Source of the DNA: Betaproteobacteria bacterium
GTDB taxonomy: Bacteria > Pseudomonadota > Gammaproteobacteria > Burkholderiales > Usitatibacteraceae
Direction: 5' to 3'
DNA length: 15,867 nt
NCBI GenBank assembly: GCA_012274175.1
Contig: JAAOZZ010000397.1
Location: forward strand, 1-15,867
A program made the translations under genes and the position numbers. Shown here in pieces: positions 3,128 to 15,309 of this stretch (position 1 is the first letter of the stretch; the number at the start of each line of letters is the position of its first letter). The notes under the pieces are model-generated. The model saw only the letters and a program-made list of their open reading frames with translations, ran no database searches and had not been told where the DNA came from.

Positions 3128-3841
3128 TCACGCCTTGCGGCGCTTGCGCTTCTCCCAGCTCGTGCTGAAGCGGCGGGCCGCGTGGTTCATGTGGCGGCGC
3201 ATCGCGGCGCGGGCCGCGGTGGGGTCGCGCCGGGCGATCGCCTGCACGATCTCGTGGTGCTCGCGGATCGCCACGTCCCACAGCGCGGGCGTGTCGTAAT
3301 GGTGCTCGAGGCGCAGGAAAAGCGGCCCCATGCGCTGGTCCCACAGCGTCTTCACGACGAGCGCCAGGGCGCTGTTGCCGCTCGCCTCGGCGATGCGCAG
3401 ATGGAACAGCCGGTCGGATGCGAGCGGCATCGTGCCCTTGTCGCGCTGCGCCTGCATCTGGTCGAGCGCGTCTTCCACGGCGCGCACCTGGGCGCGCGTG
3501 GCCGAGCGGGCGGCAAGGGACGCGCATTCCGATTCGATGAGCCAGCGGGCGCGGATCAGCTCGAACGGGCCCGAATCCGCCGGCAGCACGGGAGAGCCCG
3601 ACGCGGGATGGGGACCCAGCGCGTATACGCCCGAGCCCACGCGCACCTCCACGTAGCCCTCGACTTCGAGCGCGATCAGCGCCTCGCGCACCGACGGGCG
3701 GCTCACGCCCAGCTGGCGCGCGAGGTCGCGCTCCGGCGGCAGGCGCTCGCCCGCGCGGTACTCGCCTTTCTCGATGAGCGCGGCGATCTGGTCGGCGATC
3801 TGCCGGTACAGGCGGCGGCTGTCGACGGATTGAAGGGGCAT
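3128..3841 (-). CDS. GntR-family transcriptional regulator, FCD (FadR) subfamily; probable local repressor
   Basis: Ligand-responsive DNA-binding regulator, 237 residues, full family length. The N-terminal winged HTH (about 9-76) has LYRQIADQI, GERLPPERDLARQLGVSRPSVREALIALE and the wing GSGVY. The FCD effector domain (about 90-225) shows the usual metal or ligand residues: D143 with H147 in DRLFH, H195/H196 in REHH, and H217 in RRHMNH. FCD regulators of this type usually repress adjacent carboxylate or sugar-acid genes and release DNA on binding a pathway intermediate. The gene is divergent from the SDR operon across 82 bp. A candidate operator (3848-3864) lies a few bases upstream of its start codon, and an identical copy sits in the other divergent promoter region at 14489-14505, so autoregulation and control of both units is inferred. 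No clear Shine-Dalgarno precedes this ATG; the N-terminus nevertheless matches the family. The effector is unknown. Confidence 0.93.
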   Translation of the reverse strand: MPLQSVDSRRLYRQIADQIAALIEKGEYRAGERLPPERDLARQLGVSRPSVREALIALEVEGYVEVRVGSGVYALGPHPASGSPVLPADSGPFELIRARWLIESECASLAARSATRAQVRAVEDALDQMQAQRDKGTMPLASDRLFHLRIAEASGNSALALVVKTLWDQRMGPLFLRLEHHYDTPALWDVAIREHHEIVQAIARRDPTAARAAMRRHMNHAARRFSTSWEKRKRRKA

Positions 3842-3842
3842 C

Positions 3843-3864
3843 TGGTAAAGTGGTCAGGCCAATT
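3843..3864. promoter_or_regulatory. Candidate GntR/FCD operator, copy 1
   Basis: The core AAGTGGTCAGGCCAATT (3848-3864) is a near-palindrome around a central A: AAGTGGTC against GGCCAATT, with 6 of 8 positions complementary. It has the TGGT-N3-CCA layout of FCD-type GntR operators. The same 17 bases occur at 14489-14505, and extension to TGGT at 3843 keeps 21 of 22 identical. It lies 1 nt from the regulator's start codon and 59 nt before the SDR ATG at 3924, so it could control both divergent genes. Binding by the neighbouring regulator is inferred. Confidence 0.75.
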
Positions 3865-3923
3865 CCGGGGCAGCTTTTCACACCGGCATGCCCCCGTCAA
3901 GCGAACGATCCCGGGAGAAAACC

Positions 3924-4664
3924 ATGGCCCAACGCCTGCAGGGCAAGCGCGCCCTCGTCACCGCCGCCGGCCAGGGCATGGGACGCGCCGCGGCCCTCGC
4001 CTTCGCGCGCGAAGGCGCACAGGTGCTCGCCACCGACCTCGACCCCCGGCTGCTCGAGGCGTTCGCGCGGCACCCGGCCATCGTGCCTTCGCGCCTGGAC
4101 GTGACCGACGCGCAGGCGGTGGCCGAATTCGCCGCGGCCACGGGCGCGGTCGACATCCTCTTCAATTGCGCCGGATGGGTCCACCAGGGCTCGATCCTGC
4201 AATGCGGCATCGAGGACTGGGACCGCAGCTTCCAGCTCAACGTGCGCAGCATGTTCCTCGTGGTGAAGGCGATGCTGCCCGCGATGATCGCGGCCGGCGG
4301 CGGCGTGATCCTCAACATGTCCTCGGTGCTGGGCGCGGCCAAGGCCGCCCCCAACCGGCTTGCGTATGCGGCGAGCAAGGCGGCGGTGCAGGGCTTCACC
4401 CGCGCGCTCGCCATCGACCACGTGAAGCAGGGAATCCGCGTGAACTGCGTCTGCCCGGGGACGGTGGACACGCCCTCCCTCGCCGATCGCATCAACGCCT
4501 TCGCCGATCCGGTCCAGGCGCGCAAGGATTTCGTCGCGCGCCAGCCCATGGGGCGCCTCGCCACCGCCGAGGAGATCGCCGAGACCTTCGTCTACCTCGC
4601 GAGCGACGAGTCGTCCTTCATGACCGGGCAGGCGGTCTATGTGGACGGCGGGATGAGCCTGTAA
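3924..4664 (+). CDS. SDR-family NAD-dependent dehydrogenase, probable 2-keto-3-deoxy-aldonate (e.g. L-fuconate-type) 4-dehydrogenase
   Basis: Classical short-chain dehydrogenase, 246 residues. Cofactor loop TAAGQGMG at 13-20, Asp38 at the end of the second strand (NAD preference), NCAG at 81-84, N106, S133/S134, and the catalytic Y148-x3-K152. It strongly resembles the 2-keto-3-deoxy-L-fuconate dehydrogenase / human BDH2 group (shared IRVNCVCPGTVDTPSL and ATAEEIAETFVYLASDES). With an FAH hydrolase 49 bp downstream, C4 oxidation of a 2-keto-3-deoxy sugar acid to a 2,4-diketo acid is the best reading. The in-frame ATG at 3888 was rejected: 3924 has a GGGAG ribosome site 7-11 nt upstream and the family's normal N-terminus. 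First gene of the plus-strand operon, with the candidate operator 59 nt upstream. The exact sugar acid is not determined, and a 3-hydroxybutyrate-type substrate remains possible. Confidence 0.88.
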   Translation: MAQRLQGKRALVTAAGQGMGRAAALAFAREGAQVLATDLDPRLLEAFARHPAIVPSRLDVTDAQAVAEFAAATGAVDILFNCAGWVHQGSILQCGIEDWDRSFQLNVRSMFLVVKAMLPAMIAAGGGVILNMSSVLGAAKAAPNRLAYAASKAAVQGFTRALAIDHVKQGIRVNCVCPGTVDTPSLADRINAFADPVQARKDFVARQPMGRLATAEEIAETFVYLASDESSFMTGQAVYVDGGMSL

Positions 4665-4713
4665 ACTCCGTCGCTCGCCCGCACGGACGGGAAGAACGAA
4701 CGGAGAACGACCC

Positions 4714-5565
4714 ATGAGACTCCTGCGGTACGGCGCACCCGGCCGGGAGAAGCCCGGCCTCGCGGACAAGGACGGCAACATCCGCGACCTGTCCAAGGTC
4801 ATCGCCCAGATCGACGATTCGCTGCTCGCGCCGCGCAACCTCGCGCGCCTCGCGCGGGTGAAGCCCGAGACGCTGCCCATCGTGCGTGGCAACCCGCGCC
4901 TGGGCGTGCCTTATGCGGGCATCAGCAAGTTCGTGGCGGTGGGCCTCAACTATTCCGACCACGCCGCCGAAGCGGGCATGCCGATCCCCGCCGAGCCGAT
5001 CCTCTTCATGAAGGCCACCACGTGCCTGTGCGGGCCGAACGACGACACCATCCAGCCCAGGGGCTCCACCAAGCTCGACTGGGAGGTGGAGCTGGGCATC
5101 GTGATCGGCACCCGGGCGCAGTACGTGCCGGAATCGAAGGCGATCGACTACGTCGCGGGGTACTGCGTGGTGAACGACGTCTCGGAGCGCAACTTCCAGC
5201 TCGAGCGCGGCAGCCAGTGGGACCGCGGCAAGGGATGCGACACATTCGGGCCCGTGGGCCCCTGGCTCGTCACCACCGACGAGATCACCGATCCCCAGAC
5301 CCTCGACCTCTGGCTCGACGTGAACGGCGAGGCGCGCCAGCGCGGCAACACCCGCACCATGGTCTTCAACTGCGCGCGGCTCGTCTCGTACATCAGCCAG
5401 TACATGACGCTCCTGCCGGGGGACATCATCACCACCGGCACGCCGCCCGGGGTGGGACTGGGAATGAAGCCGCCGCAGTACCTCAAGGTGGGCGACGTCG
5501 TGACCCTCGGCATCCACGGCCTGGGCGAGCAGCGCCAGCGCGTGGTCGCCTGCGCCGCCAAGTGA
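4714..5565 (+). CDS. Fumarylacetoacetate-hydrolase-family protein, probable 2,4-diketo-3-deoxy-aldonate hydrolase
   Basis: 283 residues, the usual length of the bacterial FAH-fold group often labelled ureidoglycolate lyase or 2,4-diketo-3-deoxy-L-fuconate hydrolase. These enzymes cleave a C-C bond in 2,4-diketo acids to give pyruvate plus a shorter acid. The variable N-terminal domain (1-70) is followed by the catalytic FAH domain with GLNYSDHA (78-84), metal ligands E124 and E126 in LDWEVELG, D155 in VVNDVSER, and the C-terminal TGTPPGVGLGMKPP followed by LKVGD. Start ATG 4714 has CGGAG 9-13 nt upstream. It lies 49 bp after the C4-dehydrogenase and 19 bp before the 2-hydroxyacid dehydrogenase, so it is cotranscribed. 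Context (C4 dehydrogenase plus aldonate dehydratase, no aldolase in the window) favours the diketo-acid hydrolase over ureidoglycolate lyase, as no purine or allantoin genes are nearby. Confidence 0.88.
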   Translation: MRLLRYGAPGREKPGLADKDGNIRDLSKVIAQIDDSLLAPRNLARLARVKPETLPIVRGNPRLGVPYAGISKFVAVGLNYSDHAAEAGMPIPAEPILFMKATTCLCGPNDDTIQPRGSTKLDWEVELGIVIGTRAQYVPESKAIDYVAGYCVVNDVSERNFQLERGSQWDRGKGCDTFGPVGPWLVTTDEITDPQTLDLWLDVNGEARQRGNTRTMVFNCARLVSYISQYMTLLPGDIITTGTPPGVGLGMKPPQYLKVGDVVTLGIHGLGEQRQRVVACAAK

Positions 5566-5584
5566 CCTCTTCGCGAGGGCCTGC

Positions 5585-6523
5585 ATGAAACCGGAAGTGC
5601 TCCTGATGGGACCGATGTACCCGCCGACCATGGAGGCCCTCGAGCAGGCGTTCACGCTGCACAAGGTGGCCCAGGCGGGCGATCGCGGCACGTTCATCAC
5701 CTCGCTCGCCGATCGCGTGACCGCCGCCGCGACCACCTCGTCCCGGGGCATGGACCTGGCGACCATGACCATGCTGCCGAAGCTGAAGCTCATCTCCCAC
5801 TTCGGCGTGGGCGTGGATTCCGTGGACGTGGCCGCCGCCACCGAACGCGGCATCAAGGTGACCAATACGCCCGACGTGCTCACCGACGACGTGGCGGACC
5901 TCGCCCTGGGCCTGCTGCTCGCCACGGTGCGCCGGATCTGCGCGGGCGATCGCTACGTGCGCGCCGGCAAGTGGACCGCGGGCTCCCTGCCCCTCACCGA
6001 CACGATCCAGGGCAAGACCCTCGGCATCGTCGGAATGGGGCGCATCGGACGCGCGATCGCGAGACGCGCCGAGGCCTTCAACCTGAAGATCGCCTACCAG
6101 GGACCGAACCGCAAGGCCGACGTGGCGTATCGCTACTTCGCCGATCCCGTGGCGCTCGCGAAGGAAGCGGATTTCCTCGTCGCCGCGTGTCCCGGGGGCG
6201 AGGCCACCCGCGGGCTCGTGAGCCGCGCGGTGCTGGAGGCACTCGGCCCGCAAGGCGTCTTCGTGAACATCTCCCGCGGATCGGTCGCCGATGAGCCAGC
6301 GCTCGTCGCGGCGCTCGCCGAAGGCCGCCTCGGCGGCGCGGGACTCGACGTGTTCGCCCACGAGCCGCGCGTGCCGGAAGCCCTGTTCGAGATGGACAAC
6401 GTGGTGCTACAGCCCCACGTCGCCAGCGCGACGCACCCCACCCGTCGCGCCATGGGCCAGCTCGTGGTCGACAACCTCGCCGCCTTCTTCGCCGGCAAGC
6501 CGCTGCTCACGCCCTACAACTGA
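5585..6523 (+). CDS. D-2-hydroxyacid dehydrogenase, hydroxypyruvate/glyoxylate reductase-like (GhrB/HPPR group)
   Basis: 312 residues, full length. A substrate domain built from the N-terminal part plus the C-terminus encloses a Rossmann domain (about 100-280) with G150-x-G-x2-G155 and the catalytic triad R231 (NISRG), E260 (AHEPR) and H278 (LQPHVAS). The loop after the second Rossmann strand reads YQGPNRK without an acidic residue, which favours NADPH. Its pattern, including [16 protein letters not shown], resembles hydroxypyruvate/hydroxyphenylpyruvate reductases. The likely reaction is reduction of hydroxypyruvate to D-glycerate, glyoxylate to glycolate, or the reverse. This fits with the hydroxypyruvate isomerase gene convergent to it, whose coding end overlaps this one by 10 bp (6514-6523). 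Third gene of the SDR-FAH operon. The substrate is inferred, and a lactate-type 2-hydroxyacid is an alternative. Confidence 0.85.
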
Positions 6524-7284
6524 AGCCAGCCCAGGCCCTCGGAAGTTCCGCGCCGCGGCCGGTACTCGCAGCCGATCCAGCCGTCGTAGCCCAGCTCGTC
6601 GATGAGCGCGAAGAGGTAGGGATAGTTCACCTCGCCCAGGTCGGGCTCGTGGCGCTCCGGGACCCCCGCGACCTGCATGTGGCCCACGCCGGCGATGTAC
6701 TGGCGGATCTTCGCCGCGAGGTCGCCTTCCACGATCTGGCAGTGGTAGAGGTCCATCTGCACCTTGAGGTTCGCCTCTTCCGCCTCGCGGCAGATGGCGT
6801 GCGCCTCGTCCTGGCGGTTGAGGAAGTAGCCGGGAATGTCGCGGGTGTTGATGGGCTCGATCAAGACGGTGATGCCGAGGGTGGCCGCCTCTTTCGCCGC
6901 GTAGGCGAGGTTGCGCACGTACGCGTCGCGATGGCGCGCACGGTCCCCGCCGGGCGCGACGAGGCCCGCCATCACGTGCAGGCGCCGGTTGCCGAGGACA
7001 CGCGAGTATTCGAGCGCGGTCGCGATCGAGGCGCGGAAATCGTCCTCGCGCCCCGGGATCGCCGCCAAACCCCGCTCGCCCCTCGCGCGGTCGCCCGGAG
7101 GCGAGTTGACGAGCGCGAGCTCCAGCCCCGCCGCATCCAGGCGCGCGCGCAGCTCCGCGGCACGATGCTCGTAGGGAAAGAGGATCTCGACCGCGCGAAA
7201 CCCGTCCTTCGCCGCGGCGGCGAAGCGCTCGAGGAACGGATGCTCCCCGTACATCATCGTGAGATTGGCGGCGAAGCGCGGCAT
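6514..7284 (-). CDS. hyi: Hydroxypyruvate isomerase family TIM-barrel protein
   Basis: 256 residues, the usual length for Hyi, which interconverts hydroxypyruvate and tartronate semialdehyde. This is an AP-endonuclease-2-like TIM barrel. Metal-ligand candidates match the family: E143 ([12 protein letters not shown]), D178 (QMDLYHCQ), Q204 (GHMQVAG) and E240 (GCEYRP). The N-terminus [21 protein letters not shown] is typical, which is why the start at 7284 is preferred over the much longer upstream extension of the same frame. It is the last gene of the minus-strand operon, 32 bp after the second permease, and its stop region overlaps the end of the convergent 2-hydroxyacid dehydrogenase. A short GCGCCC/GGGCGC stem (7302-7315) lies just upstream. 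2-oxo-tetronate isomerase (OtnI) is a close relative and the main alternative, but no otn kinase or aldolase partners are visible. Confidence 0.86.
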
Positions 7285-7316
7285 GCCGTTCCTACCGGTG
7301 CGCGCCCAAGGGCGCC

Positions 7317-8207
7317 CTACTCCTTGACCGCGCCGGTCATGCCGGAGACGTAGTACTCCACGAAGAACGAATACATGATCGCCACCGGCAGCGACCCCAG
7401 GAGCGCCCCGGCCATGAGCGCGCCCCAGTGGTAGACGTCGCCTTCCACGAGCTCGGTGATGACGCCCACGGGAACCGTCTTCACCTCGGAAGAGGAGATG
7501 AAGGTGAGCGCGTAGATGAACTCGTTCCACGACAGCGTGAAGGCGAAGATGCCCGCGGAGATGAGCCCCGGCACCGCGAGCGGCAGCACGATCTTCACCA
7601 GGATCTGCCAGCGGGTGGCCCCGTCGATGAGGGCGCACTCCTCCAGCTCGAACGGGATCGAGCGGAAGTAGCCCATCAGCAGCCAGGTGCAGAACGGGAT
7701 GAGGAACGTGGGATAGGTGAGGATCAGCGCCCAGCGGGTGTCGAAGAGGCCGAGCTTGAAGACGATCGCCGCCAGCGGGATGAAGAGGATCGAGGGCGGC
7801 ACCAGGTACGCGAGGAAGATCGCGAGCCCCACCTGCTTGGAGCCGTGGAAGCGCAGCCGCTCGATGGCGTAGGCCGCCAGCACGCTCGCCGCGAGGGACG
7901 TGAACGTGGCAACCACGGAGACGATCACCGTGTTCCACATCCACTCCGGATATTGGGTCTCGAACACGAGGTGCTTGAAATGCTCGAGCGTCGGATGGAT
8001 CACCCAGAACGGATTGCCTTCCCGGGAAAGGAGCTCCCCGTTGGACTTGATGGAGGTCATGACCATCCAGTAGAACGGGAACAGCAGCACGATGACGAAG
8101 ATCGCGAGCGGCAGGTAGAGCGTCACCAGGCGGCGCGGCACCGACTCCAGGTAGCGCATGCCTTCGTTGCCGGGCACGACTTCGGTGCGGTCGGGCTCGC
8201 TCGCCAC
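7317..8207 (-). CDS. Sugar ABC transporter permease, MalG/UgpE type (CUT1)
   Basis: Inner-membrane permease subunit, 296 residues with about six TM segments, the first at residues 28-50 ([21 protein letters not shown]). The binding-protein-dependent transport domain carries the EAA loop variant [27 protein letters not shown], which docks on the ATPase. The start is GTG 1 nt after the stop of the other permease gene, so translation is probably coupled. An internal ATG at 8157-8159 ([10 protein letters not shown]) is an alternative start that removes a soluble 16-residue leader. Together with the MalF-like permease, binding protein and ATPase this forms a complete four-gene CUT1 importer. Substrate is unknown; pathway context suggests a sugar, sugar acid or small oligosaccharide. 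Confidence 0.93.
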
Positions 8208-8208
8208 G

Positions 8209-9105
8209 TCAGTCCCTGCCGCCCTGCTGCCATTTGCGCCGCTGCAGCCCGAAATAGCTGAAGAGGATCGCCGAGAGCAGGAACGGGATCATGAGGGTCG
8301 CGAGCGCCGCGCCTTCTCCCAGGGAGCCGCCGGGAATCGCGCGCTGGAACGAGAGCGTCGCCATCAGGTGCGTCGCGTTGAGCGGACCGCCGCGGGTGAT
8401 GACGTAGATCAGCTGGAAGTCGGTGAAGGTGAAGAGCACGGAGAACGTCATCACCACGGCGATGATCGGCGTGAGCAGGGGCAGCGTCACGTGGCGGAAG
8501 CGCTGCCAGGGAGTCGCGCCGTCGAGGGCCGCCGCCTCGTAGAGCGAGGGCGAGATGGTCTGCAGCCCCGCCAGCAGGCAGATGGCGACGAAGGGCACGC
8601 CGCGCCACACGTTGGCCGCGATGGTGGAGAACCGCGCGTTCCACGGGTCGCCCAGGAAATCGATGTAGGTGTGGATGAGTCCCATGCGCTCGAGCGCCCA
8701 GCTCAGCACGGAGAACTGCGCGTCGTACATCCACCAGAAGGCGATCGCCGAGAGCGCCGTGGGCACGATGAAAGGCAGCAGGATCACCGCGCGGAAGAAC
8801 GACTTGAAGGGCAGGCGCCGGTTGAGGAGCAGCGCCAGCCACAGCCCCAGCGCGAACTTGAGCGCGCTCGCCACCACAGTGTAGAAGAGCGTGTTGAAGA
8901 GCGCGAGGCGCGCCACGCTGTCGCCCACCAGGTACTGGAAATTGTCGAGACCGATCCAGTGGCCCGCGCGCCCGATCTTCGCGTCCGTGAACCCGAGCCA
9001 CGTCCCCAGCCCCAAGGGGTAGGTGAGGAACACCAGCAACAGCACTCCCGCGGGCAGCATGAAGAGCATCCCGAGGAAATGCTTGTTGTTGAACAGTCGG
9101 TTCAT
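8209..9105 (-). CDS. Sugar ABC transporter permease, MalF/UgpA type (CUT1)
   Basis: Inner-membrane permease subunit, 298 residues from the chosen ATG. About six TM helices, the first in FLGMLFMLPAGVLLLVFLTYPLG, with the EAA loop YEAAALDGATPWQRFRHVTLPLLTP. The frame is open to 9156, but the extra 17 residues would be encoded inside the hairpin region and are hydrophilic. MNRLFNNKHFLG at 9105 fits the family better. It pairs with the MalG-like permease 1 nt downstream. It is separated from the binding-protein gene by 111 bp containing two tandem hairpins, which may lower permease expression relative to the binding protein. Confidence 0.93.
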   Translation of the reverse strand: MNRLFNNKHFLGMLFMLPAGVLLLVFLTYPLGLGTWLGFTDAKIGRAGHWIGLDNFQYLVGDSVARLALFNTLFYTVVASALKFALGLWLALLLNRRLPFKSFFRAVILLPFIVPTALSAIAFWWMYDAQFSVLSWALERMGLIHTYIDFLGDPWNARFSTIAANVWRGVPFVAICLLAGLQTISPSLYEAAALDGATPWQRFRHVTLPLLTPIIAVVMTFSVLFTFTDFQLIYVITRGGPLNATHLMATLSFQRAIPGGSLGEGAALATLMIPFLLSAILFSYFGLQRRKWQQGGRD

Positions 9106-9123
9106 GGCATTAGGTTGCGTTGG

Positions 9124-9164
9124 GGACCCGGTTGAGCGGCGATGAGTCCGCTCCAACCGGGTCC
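9124..9164 (-). other. Intercistronic hairpin 1 between binding-protein and permease genes
   Basis: GGACCCGGTTGAGCGG (9124-9139) pairs with CCGCTCCAACCGGGTCC (9148-9164) with a single bulged base and an 8-nt loop. It lies in the transcribed spacer of the minus-strand operon. The very GC-rich stem has no following U-tract. Its position after the solute-binding-protein gene is where other ABC operons carry stems that stabilise the upstream mRNA or attenuate read-through; that role here is inferred. Confidence 0.7.
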
Positions 9165-9165
9165 T

Positions 9166-9203
9166 GCCCGACTTGAGCGGCTCCAGGTCCGCTCCAACCG
9201 GGC
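9166..9203 (-). other. Intercistronic hairpin 2, degenerate copy of hairpin 1
   Basis: GCCCGACTTGAGCGG (9166-9180) pairs with CCGCTCCAACCGGGC (9189-9203), with an 8-nt loop and about three mismatched positions. The right arm repeats that of hairpin 1 (CCGCTCCAACCGGG), so the two stem-loops are a tandem duplication with the left arm of this copy diverged. It begins 14 nt past the binding-protein stop codon. Confidence 0.65.
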
Positions 9204-9216
9204 TCCATACCGCGCG

Positions 9217-10542
9217 CTACAATTTGTAGTATCGCTCCGCGCGCTGCTGCGCCCGCGCCGCGGCCTCCTTCGGCGACTTCGACCCGCTCGCGGCCTCCGC
9301 CACCATGTTGACCATGATGAAGTCCGCCATGGTCGCCGCCGACGCGTAACCCATGTCGCCCGCGTAGCCGTTGGGCAGCATGATCTTCATGGCGTCGCGA
9401 TAGGGCGTGTGCTTCGGGTCCGAGGTCCAGATGGGATTGGCCTCGTAGGCCTTCAGCGGCTGGGTCACGTAGCCGATCGCGGCCTGCTGCCACGGCTCGT
9501 ACTGCTCCTTCTCCATCATGAAGGCGAGATAGGCCTTCGCCGCGTTCGGATGCTTCGAGTACTTGAACAGCATCATCGGGAAGAAGAGGTTCAGCTCCGT
9601 GGTCTTGCCGATGGGCCCGATGGGCAGGTGCGCGTGCTGGATGTCGTTCGCCAGCTCCTTCAGCTTCGGATCCTGGGAAGTCTTCGCCGCGTAGTAGATC
9701 GAGATGCCGTTCAGCGTGAGCCCGATCTGCCCGTCGAGGAACGCCTTGTTGTTGTTGGAGTCGAGCCAGGAGAGGGTGCCGGGCGCGAACGTCTGGTAGA
9801 GCTCCTTGGCGTACTCGAGCGCGGCGATCGTCTCGGGGCTGTTGATCACCACGTTGTTGTGCTGGTCCACCATCTTGCCGCCGTGGGCCCATACCACCCA
9901 GTGGGTCCAGGAGTTTCCGTCGCCCGTGGCGTTGCCCAGCGCGAAGCCCGACGGCATGCCCTTCGCCTTCATGCCCTGGGCGAGCTTCAGGAAGCCCGCG
10001 AGGTCCGAGGGGAACTTGTCGAACCCGGCTTCGTGCATCTTGCTCTCGCGATAGACGAGGGCGTTGCCCGCGCATCCCATGGGCACCGCGATCCAGCGGT
10101 TCTTGTGGGTGCAGTAGGACTTGCACACGTCGTACCAGCCGCCGTACTTGCCGCCGAGGTAGTTGCAGACGTCGGTCACGTCCACCAGCTTCTCGGGATA
10201 TTGGTGCGCGTCCTCGAAGGTGGAGATGATGATGTCGGGCCCGCTGCCCACGTTGGCCGCCACCGCCGCCTTGGGCCGCACGTCCTCCCAGCCCTCGTTG
10301 TCGACGCGCACCTCGATGCCCGTCTTCTGCGTGAACTTCTTGGTGTTCTGCATCCAGAGGTCCTCGTCGCCCTGCACGAAGCGCTTCCAGCGCAGCACCC
10401 GCAGCTTGGCGCCCTTTTCCGGCACCCATCTGCCCTGGGCGAGCGCGTCTTCGGACAGCGTGGCGCCGCCCACTCCCAGCGTTCCCGCGGCCGCGGCGCC
10501 CGCCGTGGTCTTCAGGAAATCGCGTCTCGAATACTTGGACAT
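9217..10542 (-). CDS. Extracellular solute-binding protein of sugar ABC transporter (CUT1), Tat-exported
   Basis: Periplasmic binding protein, 441 residues, of the family-1 extracellular solute-binding type. It has a twin-arginine signal (SRRDFLK at 5-11, an Ala/Gly-rich hydrophobic stretch, cleavage probable after ALA near residue 36). Mature-domain features are VLRWKRFVQGDED, GSGPDIIIS, and the late LFFPMMLFKYSKHPNAAKAYLAFMM segment common in CUT1 binding proteins. The ATG at 10542 is preceded by GAGGAGAAG, a strong ribosome site. It lies between the ATPase gene (36-bp gap) and the two permeases. Tat export implies folding in the cytoplasm before secretion. Ligand specificity cannot be read from the sequence. 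Confidence 0.94.
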   Translation of the reverse strand: MSKYSRRDFLKTTAGAAAAGTLGVGGATLSEDALAQGRWVPEKGAKLRVLRWKRFVQGDEDLWMQNTKKFTQKTGIEVRVDNEGWEDVRPKAAVAANVGSGPDIIISTFEDAHQYPEKLVDVTDVCNYLGGKYGGWYDVCKSYCTHKNRWIAVPMGCAGNALVYRESKMHEAGFDKFPSDLAGFLKLAQGMKAKGMPSGFALGNATGDGNSWTHWVVWAHGGKMVDQHNNVVINSPETIAALEYAKELYQTFAPGTLSWLDSNNNKAFLDGQIGLTLNGISIYYAAKTSQDPKLKELANDIQHAHLPIGPIGKTTELNLFFPMMLFKYSKHPNAAKAYLAFMMEKEQYEPWQQAAIGYVTQPLKAYEANPIWTSDPKHTPYRDAMKIMLPNGYAGDMGYASAATMADFIMVNMVAEAASGSKSPKEAAARAQQRAERYYKL

Positions 10543-10579
10543 GGCTCTTCTCCTCGTTAGGGGTCTATGGTCCCCGGTT

Positions 10580-11656
10580 TCAGTGCCTCAACGACTTTCC
10601 CGACTCTGCGTCGAACAGGTGCGTGCGCTCGTGATCCGGCACGAGCCGGATCGCTTCGCCCGCTCGAAACTCGTGGCGCTCGCGGAAGACCGCGGTCACT
10701 TCCGTGCCGCCGATCTTCGCGAACACCTGGGTGTCCGCCCCGGTGGGCTCCACCACGACCACCTGAGCGGCGAGTCCCTGGCCGTCCGCGGCGAGGGCCA
10801 GGTGCTCGGGGCGCATCCCGAAAATGACTTTCTGACCGTCTTCGCCCGCGGCGTCGCGCGGCAGCGGCACGGTGACCCCGCCCGCCACCTCCACCCGCGC
10901 GCCGTTCGATCCGCGCCGGATGGTGGCGGGGAGGAAGTTCATCGCCGGCGAGCCGATGAAGCCCGCCACGAAGAGGTTGGCCGGATGGTCGTAGAGCTCG
11001 AGCGGCCGACCCCGCTGCTCGACGATGCCGTCGCGCATCACGACGATCTGGTCGGCCATGGTCATGGCCTCGATCTGGTCGTGGGTCACGTACTCCGAGG
11101 TCGTCTTCAGGCGCTGGTGCAGCTCCTTGATCTCGGTGCGCATCGCCACGCGCAGCTTCGCGTCCAGGTTGGACAGCGGCTCGTCGAAGAGGAACACCTG
11201 GGGATCGCGCACGATGGCGCGCCCCATGGCCACCCGCTGGCGCTGCCCGCCCGAGAGCTGGCGCGGATAGCGCTCGAGCAGATCCCCCAGGCCCAGGATC
11301 GTCGCGGCCCGGTTCACCCGCTCGTCGATCTCGGAGCGGGGACGCTTGGCGAGCATCAGGCTGAAGGCCATGTTGTCGCGCACCTTCATGTGCGGGTAGA
11401 GCGCGTAGTTCTGGAACACCATCGCGATGTCGCGCTCCTTGGGCGGCGTGTCGTTCACCACCTTGCCGCCGATGGCGATCTCGCCGCCGGAGATCTCCTC
11501 CAGTCCCGCCACCATGCGCAGGAGCGTGGACTTGCCGCATCCCGACGGCCCCACCAGCACCGCGAACTCGCCGTCGGCGATGTCGATGTCCACGCCGCGG
11601 ATCACGTGCGTGCCGCCGAAGTGCTTGTGGACATTGCGGATGTGGACCGAGGCCAT
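10580..11656 (-). CDS. ABC transporter ATPase, MalK/UgpC type
   Basis: Energising subunit of the CUT1 importer, 358 residues. Nucleotide-binding domain: Walker [10 protein letters not shown] (about 37-45), Q-loop [11 protein letters not shown], signature [14 protein letters not shown], Walker [13 protein letters not shown], and H-loop [14 protein letters not shown]. It is followed by the C-terminal TOBE/OB regulatory domain (about 240-358, with [10 protein letters not shown]) typical of MalK/UgpC. Start ATG 11654-11656 overlaps the TGA of the upstream 2-hydroxyacid dehydrogenase by one base (TGATG), which signals translational coupling. The longer open frame upstream of [13 protein letters not shown] lies antisense or out of frame to the real upstream gene and was rejected. 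Confidence 0.95.
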
Positions 11657-12612
11657 CAGCGGCTTCCCTCGACGACCACATAATTCGGCCTGCCGTTGCG
11701 CGCCCAGTCGATCAGGTTCCGGGCGGCCTTCGTTCGCAATTCCATTTCCCCCTCGCGCGAGTAGAAGGCGGCGTGGGGCGAGAGCATCACGCGGGGATGG
11801 CGCAGGATCCCATGGCCCGCCTCGGGAGGCTCGTGGGGAAGCACGTCGAGCGCGGCCCCGTCGAGGCGCCCCGCGTCCAGCGCCGCGAGCAAGTGGTCCA
11901 GGACCACCACCGCGCCCCGGGCGGTGTTCACGAGCCAGGATCCGGGCTTCATCGTGGCGAGCGCCGCGGCGTCGACAAGGCCCCGGGTCTCCTCGGTGAG
12001 CGGCACGTGCAGCGAGAGCACGTCGGATTCGCGCAGGAGCCGCTCGCGGTCCACCCGCTCCACGTAGGAAGGAAAGCCGGAATCGGGAATGTATGGATCG
12101 CAGGCGACGATGCGCCCGAACACGGGACGGGAGACCTCGGCCATGCGCTTGCCGATCCGCCCGAGGCCGAGTATTCCGAGCGCCAGGCCCCGCGGCCGGC
12201 GCAGCGTGCCCGCCGAGGTGTAGTGCCAGCGGCCCGCGCGCACGTCGCGGTCGTACCACGGCAGGTGGCGCACGAGGGCCAACGCCATGCCGAGCGCGTG
12301 GCTCGCGACCTCTCCCAAGCCGTAATCGGGCGAATTGGCCACCCACACGCCGAACGCGCGCGCGTCGTCGGTATCCACGGTGTCGAACCCGGCTCCCATG
12401 CGGCTCACGATACGCACTTCGGGACGGGCCGCGAACACCTTGCGATTGATGGGCGCGTACTGAGTGAGCAATCCCTGGCATCCGGCGGCGGCGGCGATCA
12501 CCTCGTCCTCCGTGCGGCACTGGGCGATTTCAAGCTCCATTCCGGCTTCACGGCACAGGGCGCGCTCGAGGTCGGCGTCGGGGAAGTCGTGGTCGGTGAA
12601 GAGGAAGCGCAA
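11656..12612 (-). CDS. C-terminal-binding-protein-like D-2-hydroxyacid dehydrogenase (NAD type)
   Basis: 318 residues from TTG at 12610-12612. It contains the substrate domain, a Rossmann fold with GILGLGRIG, an acidic residue after strand two (ACDPYIP) favouring NAD, and catalytic R (NTARGAVV), E (LPHEPPE) and H (LSPHAAFY). The pattern [16 protein letters not shown] at the N-terminus, with [10 protein letters not shown], matches the CtBP/phosphoglycerate-dehydrogenase-like group found in sugar-acid operons. Start choice: the frame is open to a TTG at 12637-12639, but the extra nine residues (MGEGRGEGT) would be encoded by a dispersed hairpin repeat. The TTG at 12612 has GTGAGGG just upstream and fits the family. 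It lies second in the minus-strand operon, 97 bp after the dehydratase and overlapping the ATPase start by one base. The substrate is unknown; a 2-hydroxyacid made by the pathway is the simplest idea. Confidence 0.84.
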
Positions 12613-12614
12613 GG

Positions 12615-12651
12615 TACCCTCACCCCGGCCCTCTCCCAAGGGAGAGGGAGA
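12615..12651. repeat. 37-bp hairpin repeat, copy A
   Basis: Identical over 37 bp to 14521-14557. It contains a perfect 9-bp stem, CCCTCTCCC (12629-12637) and GGGAGAGGG (12640-12648), around AA. It sits directly upstream of the TTG start of the 2-hydroxyacid dehydrogenase and next to the 29-bp tandem repeats. The form (CCCTCACCCCGGCCCTCTCCC) looks like a common dispersed intergenic repeat of GC-rich proteobacteria; that comparison is from memory. Confidence 0.85.
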
Positions 12652-12720
12652 TCAATGGTCGCCCTTCAGGCCGAGGGTGATCAATGGTCGTCCTTCAGGC
12701 GGAGGGTGATCAATGGTTGT
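12650..12720. repeat. 29-bp tandem repeat, about 2.4 copies
   Basis: Two full 29-bp units at 12650-12678 and 12679-12707 match at 27 of 29 positions. A third, partial unit begins at 12708 (GATCAATGGTTGTC) and is the natural end of the dehydratase gene, including its stop codon. On the minus strand every unit repeats the dehydratase terminal codons followed by TGA (GACCATTGATC), so the array looks like a duplication of the gene's 3' end into the spacer. Confidence 0.85.
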
Positions 12721-14434
12721 CCCTCGGCACGGCGGCGCCGCTCTTGCCCACGAGGAAGTCCAGGTCCGCCCCGTCGCTCGCCTGGTTCACGTGGTCCACG
12801 TAGAGCTTCCAGTATCCACGGGTGAGATGGGGCTTGGGCTTCTTCCACGCGGCGCGGCGCTTGGCCAGCTCCGCGTCGCTCACGTGCAGGTGGAGCTTGC
12901 GCCGGCCCACGTCGAGCTCGATCTCGTCTCCTTCCTTCACGAGCGCCAGCGGCCCGCCCGCGGCGGATTCCGGCGCCACGTGCAGCACCACCGTGCCGTA
13001 GGCCGTGCCGCTCATGCGGGCGTCGGAGATGCGCACCATGTCGGTGATGCCGCGCTCGAGGATCTTGGCGGGCAAGGCCATGTTGCCCACCTCCGCCATG
13101 CCCGGGTATCCCTTGGGGCCGCAGTTCTTCAGCACCATCACGCAGCTCTCGTCGATGTCGAGCTTCGGGTCCTCGATGCGCCGGTGGAAATCCTCGATGT
13201 CCTCGAACACTACCGCCCGGCCCTTGTGCTTCATGAGCCTGGGCGTCGCGGCCGAGGGCTTGATGAGGGCGCCGTCGGGACAGAGGTTGCCGCGCAGCAC
13301 CGCGATGCCCGTGTCGCGCTTGAAGGGCTTGGCGAACGGCATGATCACTTCCGGGTTGTCGTTGCGCGCGTCCTTGCTGTTGTCCCAGATCGTCCGTCCG
13401 TTGGCGGTGAGCGCGTCCCGGTGCAGCAGGCCCCGCTCGCCCAGCTCGCGGATCACCACCGGCAGCCCGCCCGCGTAGCAGAAGTCCTCCATCAGGTACT
13501 TGCCGTTGGGCATGAGGTTCACGAGCGTGTGCACGCCGCGCCCGAGCTTGTCCCAGTCGTCGAGGTTCAGCTCCACCCCGATGCGCCGGGCGATGGCAAT
13601 GAGATGGATCACCGCGTTGGTCGAGCCCCCGATCGCCGCGTTCACGCGGATCGCGTTCTCGAACGCCTCCCGGGTCAGGATCCGGGAGAGCTTCAGGTCT
13701 TCCTTCACCATTTCCACGATCCGCCGCCCGGCCATGCGCGCGATCACGTTGCGCCGCGCATCCACGGCGGGATAGGCCGCGTTGCCGGGAAGTCCCAGCC
13801 CCAACGCCTCCACCATCGAGGCCATCGTGGAGGCGGTGCCCATCGTCATGCAGTGGCCGTGGGAACGGTGCATGCAGGTCTCGGCCTCGTGGAATTCCTC
13901 CCGGGTGATCTCGCCCGCGCGCAGCTGCTCCGAGAGCGACCACACGTTGGTGCCCGAGCCGATGCGCTCGCCCCGGTACCAGCCCGAGAGCATCGGCCCG
14001 CCGGAGACGCCGATGGTGGGCAGGTCCACGCTCGAGGCTCCCATCACGAGGGAGGGCGTGGTCTTGTCGCAGCCCATGAGCAGCACCACGCCGTCGATCG
14101 GGTTGCCCCGGATCGACTCCTCCACGTCCATGCTCGCGAGGTTGCGATAGAGCATGGCGGTGGGACGCAGCAGCGTCTCGCCCAGGGACATCACGGGAAA
14201 CTCGAGGGGGAAGCCGCCCGCCTCGACCACGCCCGTCTTCACGTGCTCGGCGAGCGTGCGGAAGTGGGAGTTGCAGGGCGTGAGCTCGGAATAGGTGTTG
14301 CAGATGCCGATCACCGGCCGGCCGTCGAACTGGTCCTGGGGCACCCCGCGGTTCTTCACCCATGAGCGATAGATGAAGCCCATCTTGCCCTCGCGCCCGA
14401 ACCACTGGGCGCTGCGGCGTTTGCGGGATGCCAT
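12710..14434 (-). CDS. IlvD/Edd-family sugar-acid dehydratase (L-arabinonate/D-xylonate dehydratase type)
   Basis: [2Fe-2S], Mg-dependent dehydratase that turns an aldonate into its 2-keto-3-deoxy acid; 574 residues. Cluster-ligand cysteines C54 (TPCNSH), C122 (GCDKTTPS) and C195 (HGHCMT), with K124 as the probable carbamylated metal-site lysine, E86 and D123 at the metal site, and SDARMSGTAYGTVVLH near the C-terminus. These line up with the sugar-acid branch (Rhizobium L-arabinonate dehydratase) far better than with dihydroxyacid dehydratase, including the GADLDFL end. ATG 14432-14434 has GAGGAG about 10 nt upstream; an upstream TTG at 14473 adds 13 atypical residues and was rejected. First gene of the minus-strand operon, divergent from the second SDR across an operator-bearing spacer. 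The sugar acid acted on (pentonate or hexonate) is not decided by sequence. Confidence 0.92.
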   Translation of the reverse strand: MASRKRRSAQWFGREGKMGFIYRSWVKNRGVPQDQFDGRPVIGICNTYSELTPCNSHFRTLAEHVKTGVVEAGGFPLEFPVMSLGETLLRPTAMLYRNLASMDVEESIRGNPIDGVVLLMGCDKTTPSLVMGASSVDLPTIGVSGGPMLSGWYRGERIGSGTNVWSLSEQLRAGEITREEFHEAETCMHRSHGHCMTMGTASTMASMVEALGLGLPGNAAYPAVDARRNVIARMAGRRIVEMVKEDLKLSRILTREAFENAIRVNAAIGGSTNAVIHLIAIARRIGVELNLDDWDKLGRGVHTLVNLMPNGKYLMEDFCYAGGLPVVIRELGERGLLHRDALTANGRTIWDNSKDARNDNPEVIMPFAKPFKRDTGIAVLRGNLCPDGALIKPSAATPRLMKHKGRAVVFEDIEDFHRRIEDPKLDIDESCVMVLKNCGPKGYPGMAEVGNMALPAKILERGITDMVRISDARMSGTAYGTVVLHVAPESAAGGPLALVKEGDEIELDVGRRKLHLHVSDAELAKRRAAWKKPKPHLTRGYWKLYVDHVNQASDGADLDFLVGKSGAAVPRDNH

Positions 14435-14460
14435 GCGGGGGGTCTCCTCGGCGTGATCGA

Positions 14461-14490
14461 AGGGTACGGTCAAGGTCGCCGGATGGTCAA
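14461..14490 (-). promoter_or_regulatory. Putative sigma70-type promoter of the dehydratase-ABC operon
   Basis: Read on the minus strand, TTGACC (14485-14490) and TACCCT (14461-14466) are separated by 18 nt. The -35 matches consensus at five of six, while the -10 is weak (three of six). The -35 overlaps the candidate GntR operator at 14484-14505, which would suit repression by occlusion. Transcription would begin roughly 20 nt upstream of the dehydratase ATG. Pattern-based only. Confidence 0.35.
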
Positions 14491-14505
14491 GTGGTCAGGC
14501 CAATT
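14484..14505. promoter_or_regulatory. Candidate GntR/FCD operator, copy 2
   Basis: AAGTGGTCAGGCCAATT at 14489-14505 is identical to 3848-3864; with the preceding TGGT-N the match is 21 of 22. It is centred in the spacer between the dehydratase (start 50 nt to the left) and the second SDR (start 57 nt to the right). An adjacent perfect 8-bp palindrome TGGTACCA (14507-14514) adds another TGGT/ACCA pair and could be a secondary half-site pair. Confidence 0.75.
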
Positions 14506-14520
14506 TTGGTACCATCCCGT

Positions 14521-14557
14521 TACCCTCACCCCGGCCCTCTCCCAAGGGAGAGGGAGA
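14521..14557. repeat. 37-bp hairpin repeat, copy B
   Basis: Identical to copy A (12615-12651). The stem arms are 14535-14543 and 14546-14554. Its 3' arm and flank (AGGGAG, 14551-14556) form the purine-rich ribosome site of the second SDR gene, 6 nt before the ATG, so the repeat is part of that gene's 5' leader. Confidence 0.85.
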
Positions 14558-14562
14558 AGACC

Positions 14563-15309
14563 ATGAACCAGCTCGACCTGAAGGGACGCAAGGCCGTGGT
14601 GACCGGAGGCGCGGCGGGGATCGGATGGGCGATCGCCCAACGGCTGGCTGCATCGGGCGCGCGGGTGAGCCTGTGGGATCGGGACGAGCGCGCCCTCGCG
14701 CAATGCGCGGAAAAGCTTTCAGGCGGCGCGCATGCGGCCCCCGTGGACGTGAGCGACGAGGCCCAGGTGGCCCGGGCCCTCGGCGAGACGCTCGCGGCCT
14801 TCGGACGCGTGGACATCCTGGTGTGCAGCGCCGGCATCACCGGGCCCAACACGACCACCTGGGAGTATCCCGTGGCCGACTGGAAGCAGGTGCTCGACAT
14901 CAACCTCACGGGCACCTTCCTCTGCAACCGGGCCGTCGCGGCCCACATGCGCGCCAACGACTACGGGCGCATCGTGAACATCGCCTCCATCGCCGGCAAG
15001 GAAGGCAACCCCAATGCCTCGGCCTACAGCGCTTCGAAGGCGGGGGTGGTCTCGCTCACGAAGTCCCTGGGCAAGGAGCTCGCGAAGAGCGGCATCCGCG
15101 TCAATTGCGTGACGCCCGCGGCGGTGAAGACCGGCATGTTCAGCCAGATGACCCAGGCCCACATCGACTTCATGCTCTCGAAGATTCCCATGGGCCGCTT
15201 CGGCGAGGTGAACGAGATCGCGGCGATGGTGGCCTGGCTCTGCACCGAGGAATGTTCCTTTTCCACCGCGGCCGTCTTCGATCTGTCCGGGGGGCGCGCC
15301 GTCTATTAG
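14563..15309 (+). CDS. SDR-family NAD-dependent oxidoreductase, possible sugar 1-dehydrogenase
   Basis: Classical short-chain dehydrogenase, 248 residues. TGGAAGIG at 14-21, D39 after strand two (NAD preference), S142, Y155 and K159. The usual NNAG is replaced by CSAG at 88-91, and the common PG after the sixth strand reads PA (185-186). The C-terminus [10 protein letters not shown] is characteristic of a FabG-like group of sugar/polyol dehydrogenases. A FabG role is unlikely, because it is isolated from lipid genes and divergent from the aldonate dehydratase behind the shared operator. Oxidation of the free sugar at C1, or of another pathway hydroxyl, is inferred. The frame is open to 14428, but 14563 has a good ribosome site (AGGGAG) and the normal N-terminus. 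It lies 57 nt right of operator copy 2. Confidence 0.85.

Follow-up and report, generated by a model that had tools for sequence, protein, structure and literature searches.

A predicted GntR-family regulon with two conserved operators in a route III-like sugar-acid gene cluster of betaproteobacteria

The window analysed here, a stretch of 15,867 nucleotides from a betaproteobacterium of the Usitatibacteraceae, carries a sugar-acid gene cluster that is very probably controlled by its own repressor, an FCD-type GntR protein (3128-3841) acting through two nearly identical operators, O1 and O2, on four transcription units. This prediction is drawn from the DNA itself and from its relatives. The GntR protein would bind O1 and O2, each in a divergent intergenic region, and the units under its control would be gntR itself; an operon of a short-chain dehydrogenase (SDR1), an FAH-family hydrolase and a hydroxyacid dehydrogenase; an operon of a dehydratase, a second hydroxyacid dehydrogenase, an ABC transporter and an isomerase; and a second short-chain dehydrogenase (SDR2). 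The repressor would be freed by a pathway intermediate, an aldonate or a 2-keto-3-deoxy-aldonate, near the metal site of its FCD domain. The window is contig C55 of its own assembly (3,143,817 bases, 479 contigs, 80.56% complete), and the elements on which the proposal turns are the following (profile R1 is described below).

3128..3841 (-), GntR-family regulator with an FCD domain, proposed repressor; PF07729 and PF00392 above cut-offs
3843..3864 (-), operator O1, between gntR and SDR1; half-sites TGGT 3843-3846, TGGT 3851-3854 and GCCA 3858-3861; exact 17-mer; profile R1 26.4 bits, E 2.8e-5; 19/22 columns invariant in five species
14484..14505 (-), operator O2, between the dehydratase gene and SDR2; half-sites TGGT 14484-14487, TGGT 14492-14495 and GCCA 14499-14502; exact 17-mer; profile R1 27.4 bits, E 1.3e-5; 21/22 columns invariant in five species

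A sequence-only reading of this DNA had proposed two identical 17-base sites, extending to a 21/22 match, in divergent intergenic regions and 57-59 nt from an SDR start, and all of this holds. The 17-mer AAGTGGTCAGGCCAATT occurs without mismatch at 3848-3864 and 14489-14505, and the 22-mers at 3843-3864 and 14484-14505 agree at 21/22 positions, the sole difference being the fifth base (A or C). Two 17-mers with at most three mismatches are thus observed in the window, where 0.01 would be expected by chance. In the rest of the assembly, within its 80.56% completeness, there is no exact copy of the 17-mer, and allowing up to three mismatches adds two matches, each with three. O1 lies between gntR (-, start codon 3841-3839), from which the 22-mer is separated by a single base, and SDR1 (+, start 3924), at 59 nt. 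O2 lies between the dehydratase gene (-), whose start was taken as the ATG at 14434 and not the mechanical TTG at 14473, and SDR2 (+, start 14563), at 57 nt. The operator-to-SDR distance varies among congeners.

Both operators contain the pattern TGGYNNNRCCA, in keeping with the operator consensus of the FadR subfamily, a palindrome in which a short gap separates a GT from an AC pair (PMC4494728). The same pattern lies near gntR in 65/80 named loci, these 80 being the top of 579 confirmed relatives ranked by GntR similarity. One arm is GCCA in O1 and O2, so that the right arm deviates from strict AC. The TGGT-N3-ACCA-like site of the sequence-only reading is borne out in the core, while the operator as a whole has three half-sites and is not a plain palindrome.

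The regulator is a member of the FCD group of the GntR superfamily (PF00392 79.3 bits, PF07729 96.4 bits), as that reading had it, although it is not the only regulator in the window: an OmpR-type response regulator is encoded at 2073-2849, downstream of gntR and outside the cluster, and also adjoins gntR in the congener G001 (L050). The nearest NCBIfam models are ExuR (161.5 bits, cut-off 396) and UxuR (144.2 bits, cut-off 442), and by these cut-offs the protein is not a UxuR/ExuR equivalog; nor is it a NanR (123.8 bits, cut-off 260), given its inverted core site and its lack of an N-terminal extension. Arg38, Arg48 and Arg52 are invariant in 15 aligned sequences and spaced like the DNA-contact arginines 35, 45 and 49 of FadR (PMC4494728). 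Asp143, His147, His195 and His217, invariant in the same alignment, fit the FCD metal site by sequence pattern; the ligands in Atu1419 are Asn137 and three histidines (PMC7797058). The predicted structure consists of a winged-helix domain followed, from residue 92 on, by seven helices, with a mean pLDDT of 82.9 and a pTM of 0.59 that leaves the domain arrangement uncertain. The PDB matches to this fold are GntR-family proteins, led by 6az6 and a DhdR-DNA complex, and they are mixed (DhdR, NanR, VanR-type) at a TM of about 0.5. Ligand domains have seven helices in the FadR subfamily and six in the VanR type.

We consider it unlikely that this protein is instead an activator, or that, from the same sites, it acts as a repressor of its own gene and an activator of the enzyme operons. 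Activating FCD regulators exist (CitO), and a promoter and terminator scan of both intergenic regions found no terminator and recognised no sigma-70-like promoter near either site, which gives repression no support from an overlap with a promoter. The end of O1 a single base from the gntR start codon would nevertheless suit repression of gntR, and FadR-subfamily regulators of sugar-acid genes are mostly repressors.

Conservation supports the proposed regulon. Six genomes of the genus were compared, including the window's own (G000), of which G000 and G001 are 81% and G005 87% complete. The 11-base core TGGTCAGGCCA is found in 5/6 of them. The sequence-only reading had called for footprinting of the two intergenic regions in related genomes, and both sites do recur in the homologous regions, gntR/SDR1 and dehydratase/SDR2, in 4/5 congeners (G001-G004), at a spacing that goes from 10.6 kb in the window to 15.2 kb in G003, 17.2 kb in G002 and 32.8 kb in G004, with the sites on separate contigs in G001. 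Across the five species, 19/22 columns are invariant in the operator of the gntR/SDR1 region against 7/88 outside it, and 21/22 against 5/262 in the dehydratase/SDR2 region. The outer box reads TGGTAAA at O1 and TGGTCAA at O2 in all five species, and the single base that separates the two 22-mers is thus itself conserved.

The 65/80 named loci with the core pattern near gntR were reduced to 39 non-redundant gntR-proximal sites for a conservation table, and 37 of these 39, all outside the genus, gave R1, a sequence-only profile of 26 positions. L076 and L122 were omitted: read in the direction of gntR, they lack CC at the third box, and both have a box on the other side. Their omission slightly enriches R1 for the third box relative to the table. 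In every one of the five genus genomes with a GntR ortholog, three of which are single-contig, R1 found two strong sites, at 21.7-28.5 bits and E 8.1e-4 or better; the E-values are rough. R1 scored 150 of the 300-909 candidates in each genome; none of the rest of these was better than 13 bits and E 0.68, and G005 had no strong site. An exhaustive scan of the six genomes with the pattern AANTGGYNNNRCCANTTNNCC, allowing one mismatch, gave seven exact matches, all at operators of G000, G002, G003 and G004; the three remaining operators, both of those in G001 and one in G003, carry one mismatch, and the leftover one-mismatch matches are no commoner than in a reversed-pattern control. Together, these scans delimit the predicted regulon to the two operators and the four transcription units that adjoin them. 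The whole-genome search that the sequence-only reading had proposed thus finds the exact 17-mer at two places only in the window's own genome and, among the candidates scored, no surplus strong sites in the genus genomes with the regulator. Its claim of a complete regulon stands as two sites in each of these genomes, the completeness being drawn from the complete congeners, since the window's own genome is at 80.6%.

The association between site and regulator extends beyond the genus. Of 300 genomes searched in the order, 16 had a close GntR ortholog (E 1e-55 or better), including the window's own and three congeners. A near match to the site was present in 15/16 of these, compared with 63/284 genomes without the ortholog (Fisher p 7e-9, uncorrected for relatedness; as the genomes are related, this value is no true probability). 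The near match falls within about 150 bases of gntR in 14/16 ortholog genomes, and G177 has a more degenerate site near gntR. In G075 and G026, a site with the third box stands directly before SDR1-FAH on a contig without gntR. Among the named loci, a core site of at least 19 bits occurs in 78/80 fetched stretches and lies near the gntR start in 66/80; of the two without it, the L063 stretch ends shortly upstream of gntR and L121 has a degenerate site. Reversed sequence, as a control, gave 2 matches in 1.37 Mb. The neighbouring genes recur as well: counting matches of 35% identity over half of the query, in stretches that differ in length, the loci contain homologs of SDR1 in at least 61, FAH in at least 60, SDR2 in at least 43, the dehydratase in at least 26 and the ABC ATPase in at least 24.

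Five loci from other families (L077, L080, L086, L092 and L106) carry two sites 105-199 bases apart before SDR2, the second of them weak in L080 and L106 (under 15 bits). This arrangement suggests one site per operon.

A rival possibility is that a different GntR paralog encoded in this genome (an LldR- or UxuR-like protein, say) acts at the sites, with the adjacent gntR as one more of its targets. The genome does hold six GntR matches to the window protein at E 0.001 or better, the core fits the consensus of the FadR subfamily, and sites exist without a close ortholog, one of them in G155 near a GntR of 31% identity. The co-occurrence of site and ortholog described above nevertheless speaks for the adjacent regulator, as does the presence of the site beside a gntR of this type in 66/80 loci across families, and G005 retains other GntR proteins (2 matches) yet has no site. 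We regard control by a paralog as very unlikely.

The operator recognised by the proposed repressor would consist of the palindromic core and a third half-site 8 bp from one arm, and it is because this third half-site is conserved that the repeat match reached 22 bp. In the 39 non-redundant sites, CC occupies positions +11 and +12 in 37/39 and CCA is complete in 32/39; on the opposite side, the mirror position barely departs from background (TGG in 4/39). The third half-site is present at all ten genus sites. Among 25 sites of the named loci that lie away from gntR, CC is present in 20/25, with the orientation of each site chosen by best full score, which favours detection of the third box. 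Ten extra genomic stretches were also inspected: CC was found in four, from G075, G026 (two) and G281, all with the ortholog, and not in G158, which has the ortholog too, and the five from genomes without a close ortholog had it in two (G155, G237) and not in three.

The conservation of the third half-site, nearly as good as that of the core, led us to reject a plain palindrome as a model of the operator. A symmetric operator with four half-sites was rejected too, since it occurs in isolated loci (L096 and L101 among them) and the mirror TGG is present in only 4/39 sites. Weaker extra boxes, 7-12 nt from the site centre, have been described beside related sites, their role being left open (Suvorova et al., 2015; PMC4494728). 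We tentatively consider it possible that two dimers of the same FCD regulator fill the tripartite operator, an arrangement that would stand between a single-dimer palindrome and the tandem-repeat assembly of NanR and would do without a NanR-like N-terminal extension.

The third half-site might alternatively be the -35 box of a gntR promoter, TTGACC resembling TTGACA, since the motif reads CTTGACCA and is directed towards gntR in the gntR-proximal sites (37/39). The base pattern does not support this, as the sixth base is C in 37/39 sites and never A, and variants such as TTGTCC and TTTACC retain CC while losing other bases of a -35 box. Moreover, no -10 box is conserved 16-18 nt onward, the motif in the window ends one base before the gntR start codon, with no space for a promoter, and it recurs at O2 and, away from gntR, at SDR1 promoters. 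The -35 reading is highly improbable on these grounds, and we rejected it.

That the identical sites are no regulatory element at all, but a product of chance or of a dispersed repeat, has next to no probability: the congener G002 has dozens of AAGGGGTCAGACCACTT arms three mismatches from the site, and repeat hairpins share an intergenic region with the operator in G002 and G004, but these arms score 10.7-10.8 bits with R1 and the sites 21.7-28.5, such arms are absent from the window's own genome within three mismatches, chance predicts only the 0.01 matches given above, and the genus profile results and footprint conservation make the idea untenable.

The G002 hairpin is a dispersed repeat of this one congener (for example in L145, or at L045:1017-1070). 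A search of G002 for sequences up to three mismatches from the operator lists 97, including the two operators. Of these 97, 77 have AAGGGGTCAGACCACTT and 14 have a variant of it, mostly arranged as inverted pairs at spacings of 30-60 bases. The similar hairpins of G002 and G004 adjoin the operator in the dehydratase/SDR2 region.

Several observations, in addition to the outcome of the promoter scan, weigh against the proposed regulon. The near matches in 63/284 genomes without a close ortholog show that the 17-mer alone is unspecific, and in G198 the near match is far from the ortholog, with weaker sites 1.2-1.4 kb from gntR. The third half-site is absent in 5/25 of the extra sites and in G158. 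One further copy of the 11-base core occurs away from the cluster in each of G002 and G004; we rejected these two as operators, as they lie in the same unrelated sequence in both genomes and have profile scores of -2.6 or less. In G005, a close GntR ortholog is absent (best E 1e-7), the best FAH match has 40% identity and the cluster as a whole seems to be missing, so that the lack of sites there is not an independent test. On the side of function, the hydrolase scores 455.5 bits against NF053535, the closest named function, and misses its cut-off of 500.

The genes that the regulator is proposed to control are listed here in the order of the window.

3924..4664 (+), SDR1, probable 2-keto-3-deoxy-sugar-acid 4-dehydrogenase; PF13561; 8xwk 241.8 bits, 2ag5 279.5 bits
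4714..5565 (+), FAH-family hydrolase, probable 2,4-diketo-3-deoxy-sugar-acid hydrolase; PF01557; 8gsr 350.9 bits
5585..6523 (+), D-2-hydroxyacid dehydrogenase 1, third gene after O1; PF02826, PF00389
6514..7284 (-), isomerase, start inferred; NF043033 395.9 bits, above its cut-off of 325
7317..8207 (-), ABC permease 2; PF00528
8209..9156 (-), ABC permease 1; PF00528
9217..10542 (-), ABC substrate-binding protein with a twin-arginine signal; PF13416, PF01547, PF10518
10580..11656 (-), ABC transporter ATPase of the MalK/UgpC type, start inferred; NF008653 512.9 bits, cut-off 432
11656..12639 (-), D-2-hydroxyacid dehydrogenase 2; PF02826, PF00389
12710..14434 (-), IlvD/EDD-type sugar-acid dehydratase, at the head of the predicted transport operon; NF004784 943.2 bits, cut-off 539
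14563..15309 (+), SDR2, short-chain dehydrogenase; PF13561, PF00106; 6d9y 303.4 bits

The dehydratase, ABC and isomerase genes do stand in line, as the sequence-only reading had them, with a second D-2-hydroxyacid dehydrogenase that it did not list. For the last of these genes, labelled hyi there, the 2-oxo-tetronate isomerase model NF043033 fits better, the hydroxypyruvate isomerase model TIGR03234 giving 315.9 bits, below its cut-off of 353.45. A palindromic repeat, CCCTCTCCC/GGGAGAGGG, lies at 14530-14560, just before SDR2, and seems to be the source of the SDR2 ribosome-binding site; a stretch like it seems to precede the second D-2-hydroxyacid dehydrogenase, at about 12640.

The adjacency of SDR1 and FAH, homologs of the two enzymes that mark route III, together with the IlvD/EDD dehydratase and the ABC importer, fits this pathway (PMC6336799). 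An imported sugar acid would be dehydrated, the 2-keto-3-deoxy product oxidised at C4, and the result hydrolysed to pyruvate and a 2-hydroxyacid. The solved relatives of SDR1 are human BDH2 (2ag5) and the L-2-keto-3-deoxyfuconate 4-dehydrogenase (L-KDFDH) of Herbaspirillum huttiense (8xwk and others), and the best solved relative of FAH is 8gsr, an L-2,4-diketo-3-deoxyrhamnonate hydrolase. L-KDFDH holds its substrate with Arg148, Arg192 and Arg214, and its Trp252 contacts the C6 methyl of the fuconate product (PMC11199699). These residues, numbered 144, 188 and 210 in the chain (four lower throughout), are each Arg in SDR1, and Met takes the place aligned with Trp252, which sets SDR1 apart from the L-fucose branch. 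The change from Trp252 to Met gives weak support to a hexonate or pentonate over a 6-deoxy acid, and makes L-fucose a less likely substrate. The dehydratase scores 859.1 bits against the L-arabinonate dehydratase model, below its cut-off of 882.

In G001, the isomerase follows a kinase (SBD_N and NBD_C domains), which we take to be of the OtnK type, and a class II aldolase, the three standing together (L048:971-3467). The OtnK-type kinase domain PF07005 was found in 1/6 genus genomes, G001 only, and not in the window's assembly, so that a full four-carbon-acid module is not general. In G003, a gene of the malate/L-lactate dehydrogenase family (PF02615, L044:14825-15868) lies between FAH and the hydroxyacid dehydrogenase, which are side by side in the window.

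The predicted regulon adds a new case to a familiar type of gene control, with a third box that is better conserved than in published descriptions of such boxes. The main text of the route III papers PMC6336799 and PMC11199699 does not mention GntR, and a literature search found no description of this regulon, a weak negative given its poor coverage of subscription papers. Our analysis provides a sequence-predicted, two-operator regulon for a route III-like sugar-acid cluster, supported by relatives in many named betaproteobacterial genomes. The conserved third half-site also makes the published but unexplained extra boxes beside GntR-family sites directly testable.

Among known systems, the UxuR/ExuR regulators of the FadR subfamily give the best NCBIfam matches of the window GntR, and they too have sugar-acid genes as targets and TGGT/ACCA half-sites. 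The window protein, however, is far below the family cut-offs, and the cluster genes presumably fit route III and not the hexuronate isomerase and oxidoreductase genes of UxuR/ExuR systems. NanR of Escherichia coli, a related protein (6on4, 65.1 bits), resembles the system in having three repeated half-site words per operator. The NanR operator is made of (GGTATA)3 repeats, and its cooperativity requires a 32-residue N-terminal extension (PMC8012715), whereas the operators described here combine an inverted pair of arms with one direct arm, and helix 1 of the window GntR is predicted to start at residue 8. The extra half-sites that Suvorova et al. (2015; PMC4494728) describe for the FadR, HutC and YtrA subfamilies likewise place a further half-site beside the site, but the boxes are weaker in their description, and the CC of the third box is here nearly as invariant as the core. 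Finally, the route III clusters for L-fucose and pentoses of Herbaspirillum huttiense also bring together homologs of the SDR 4-dehydrogenase and FAH-type hydrolase, an ABC transporter and a regulator (PMC6336799, PMC11199699); the cluster described here differs from them in its IlvD/EDD-type dehydratase, its two D-2-hydroxyacid dehydrogenases and the altered residue that in L-KDFDH meets the C6 methyl.

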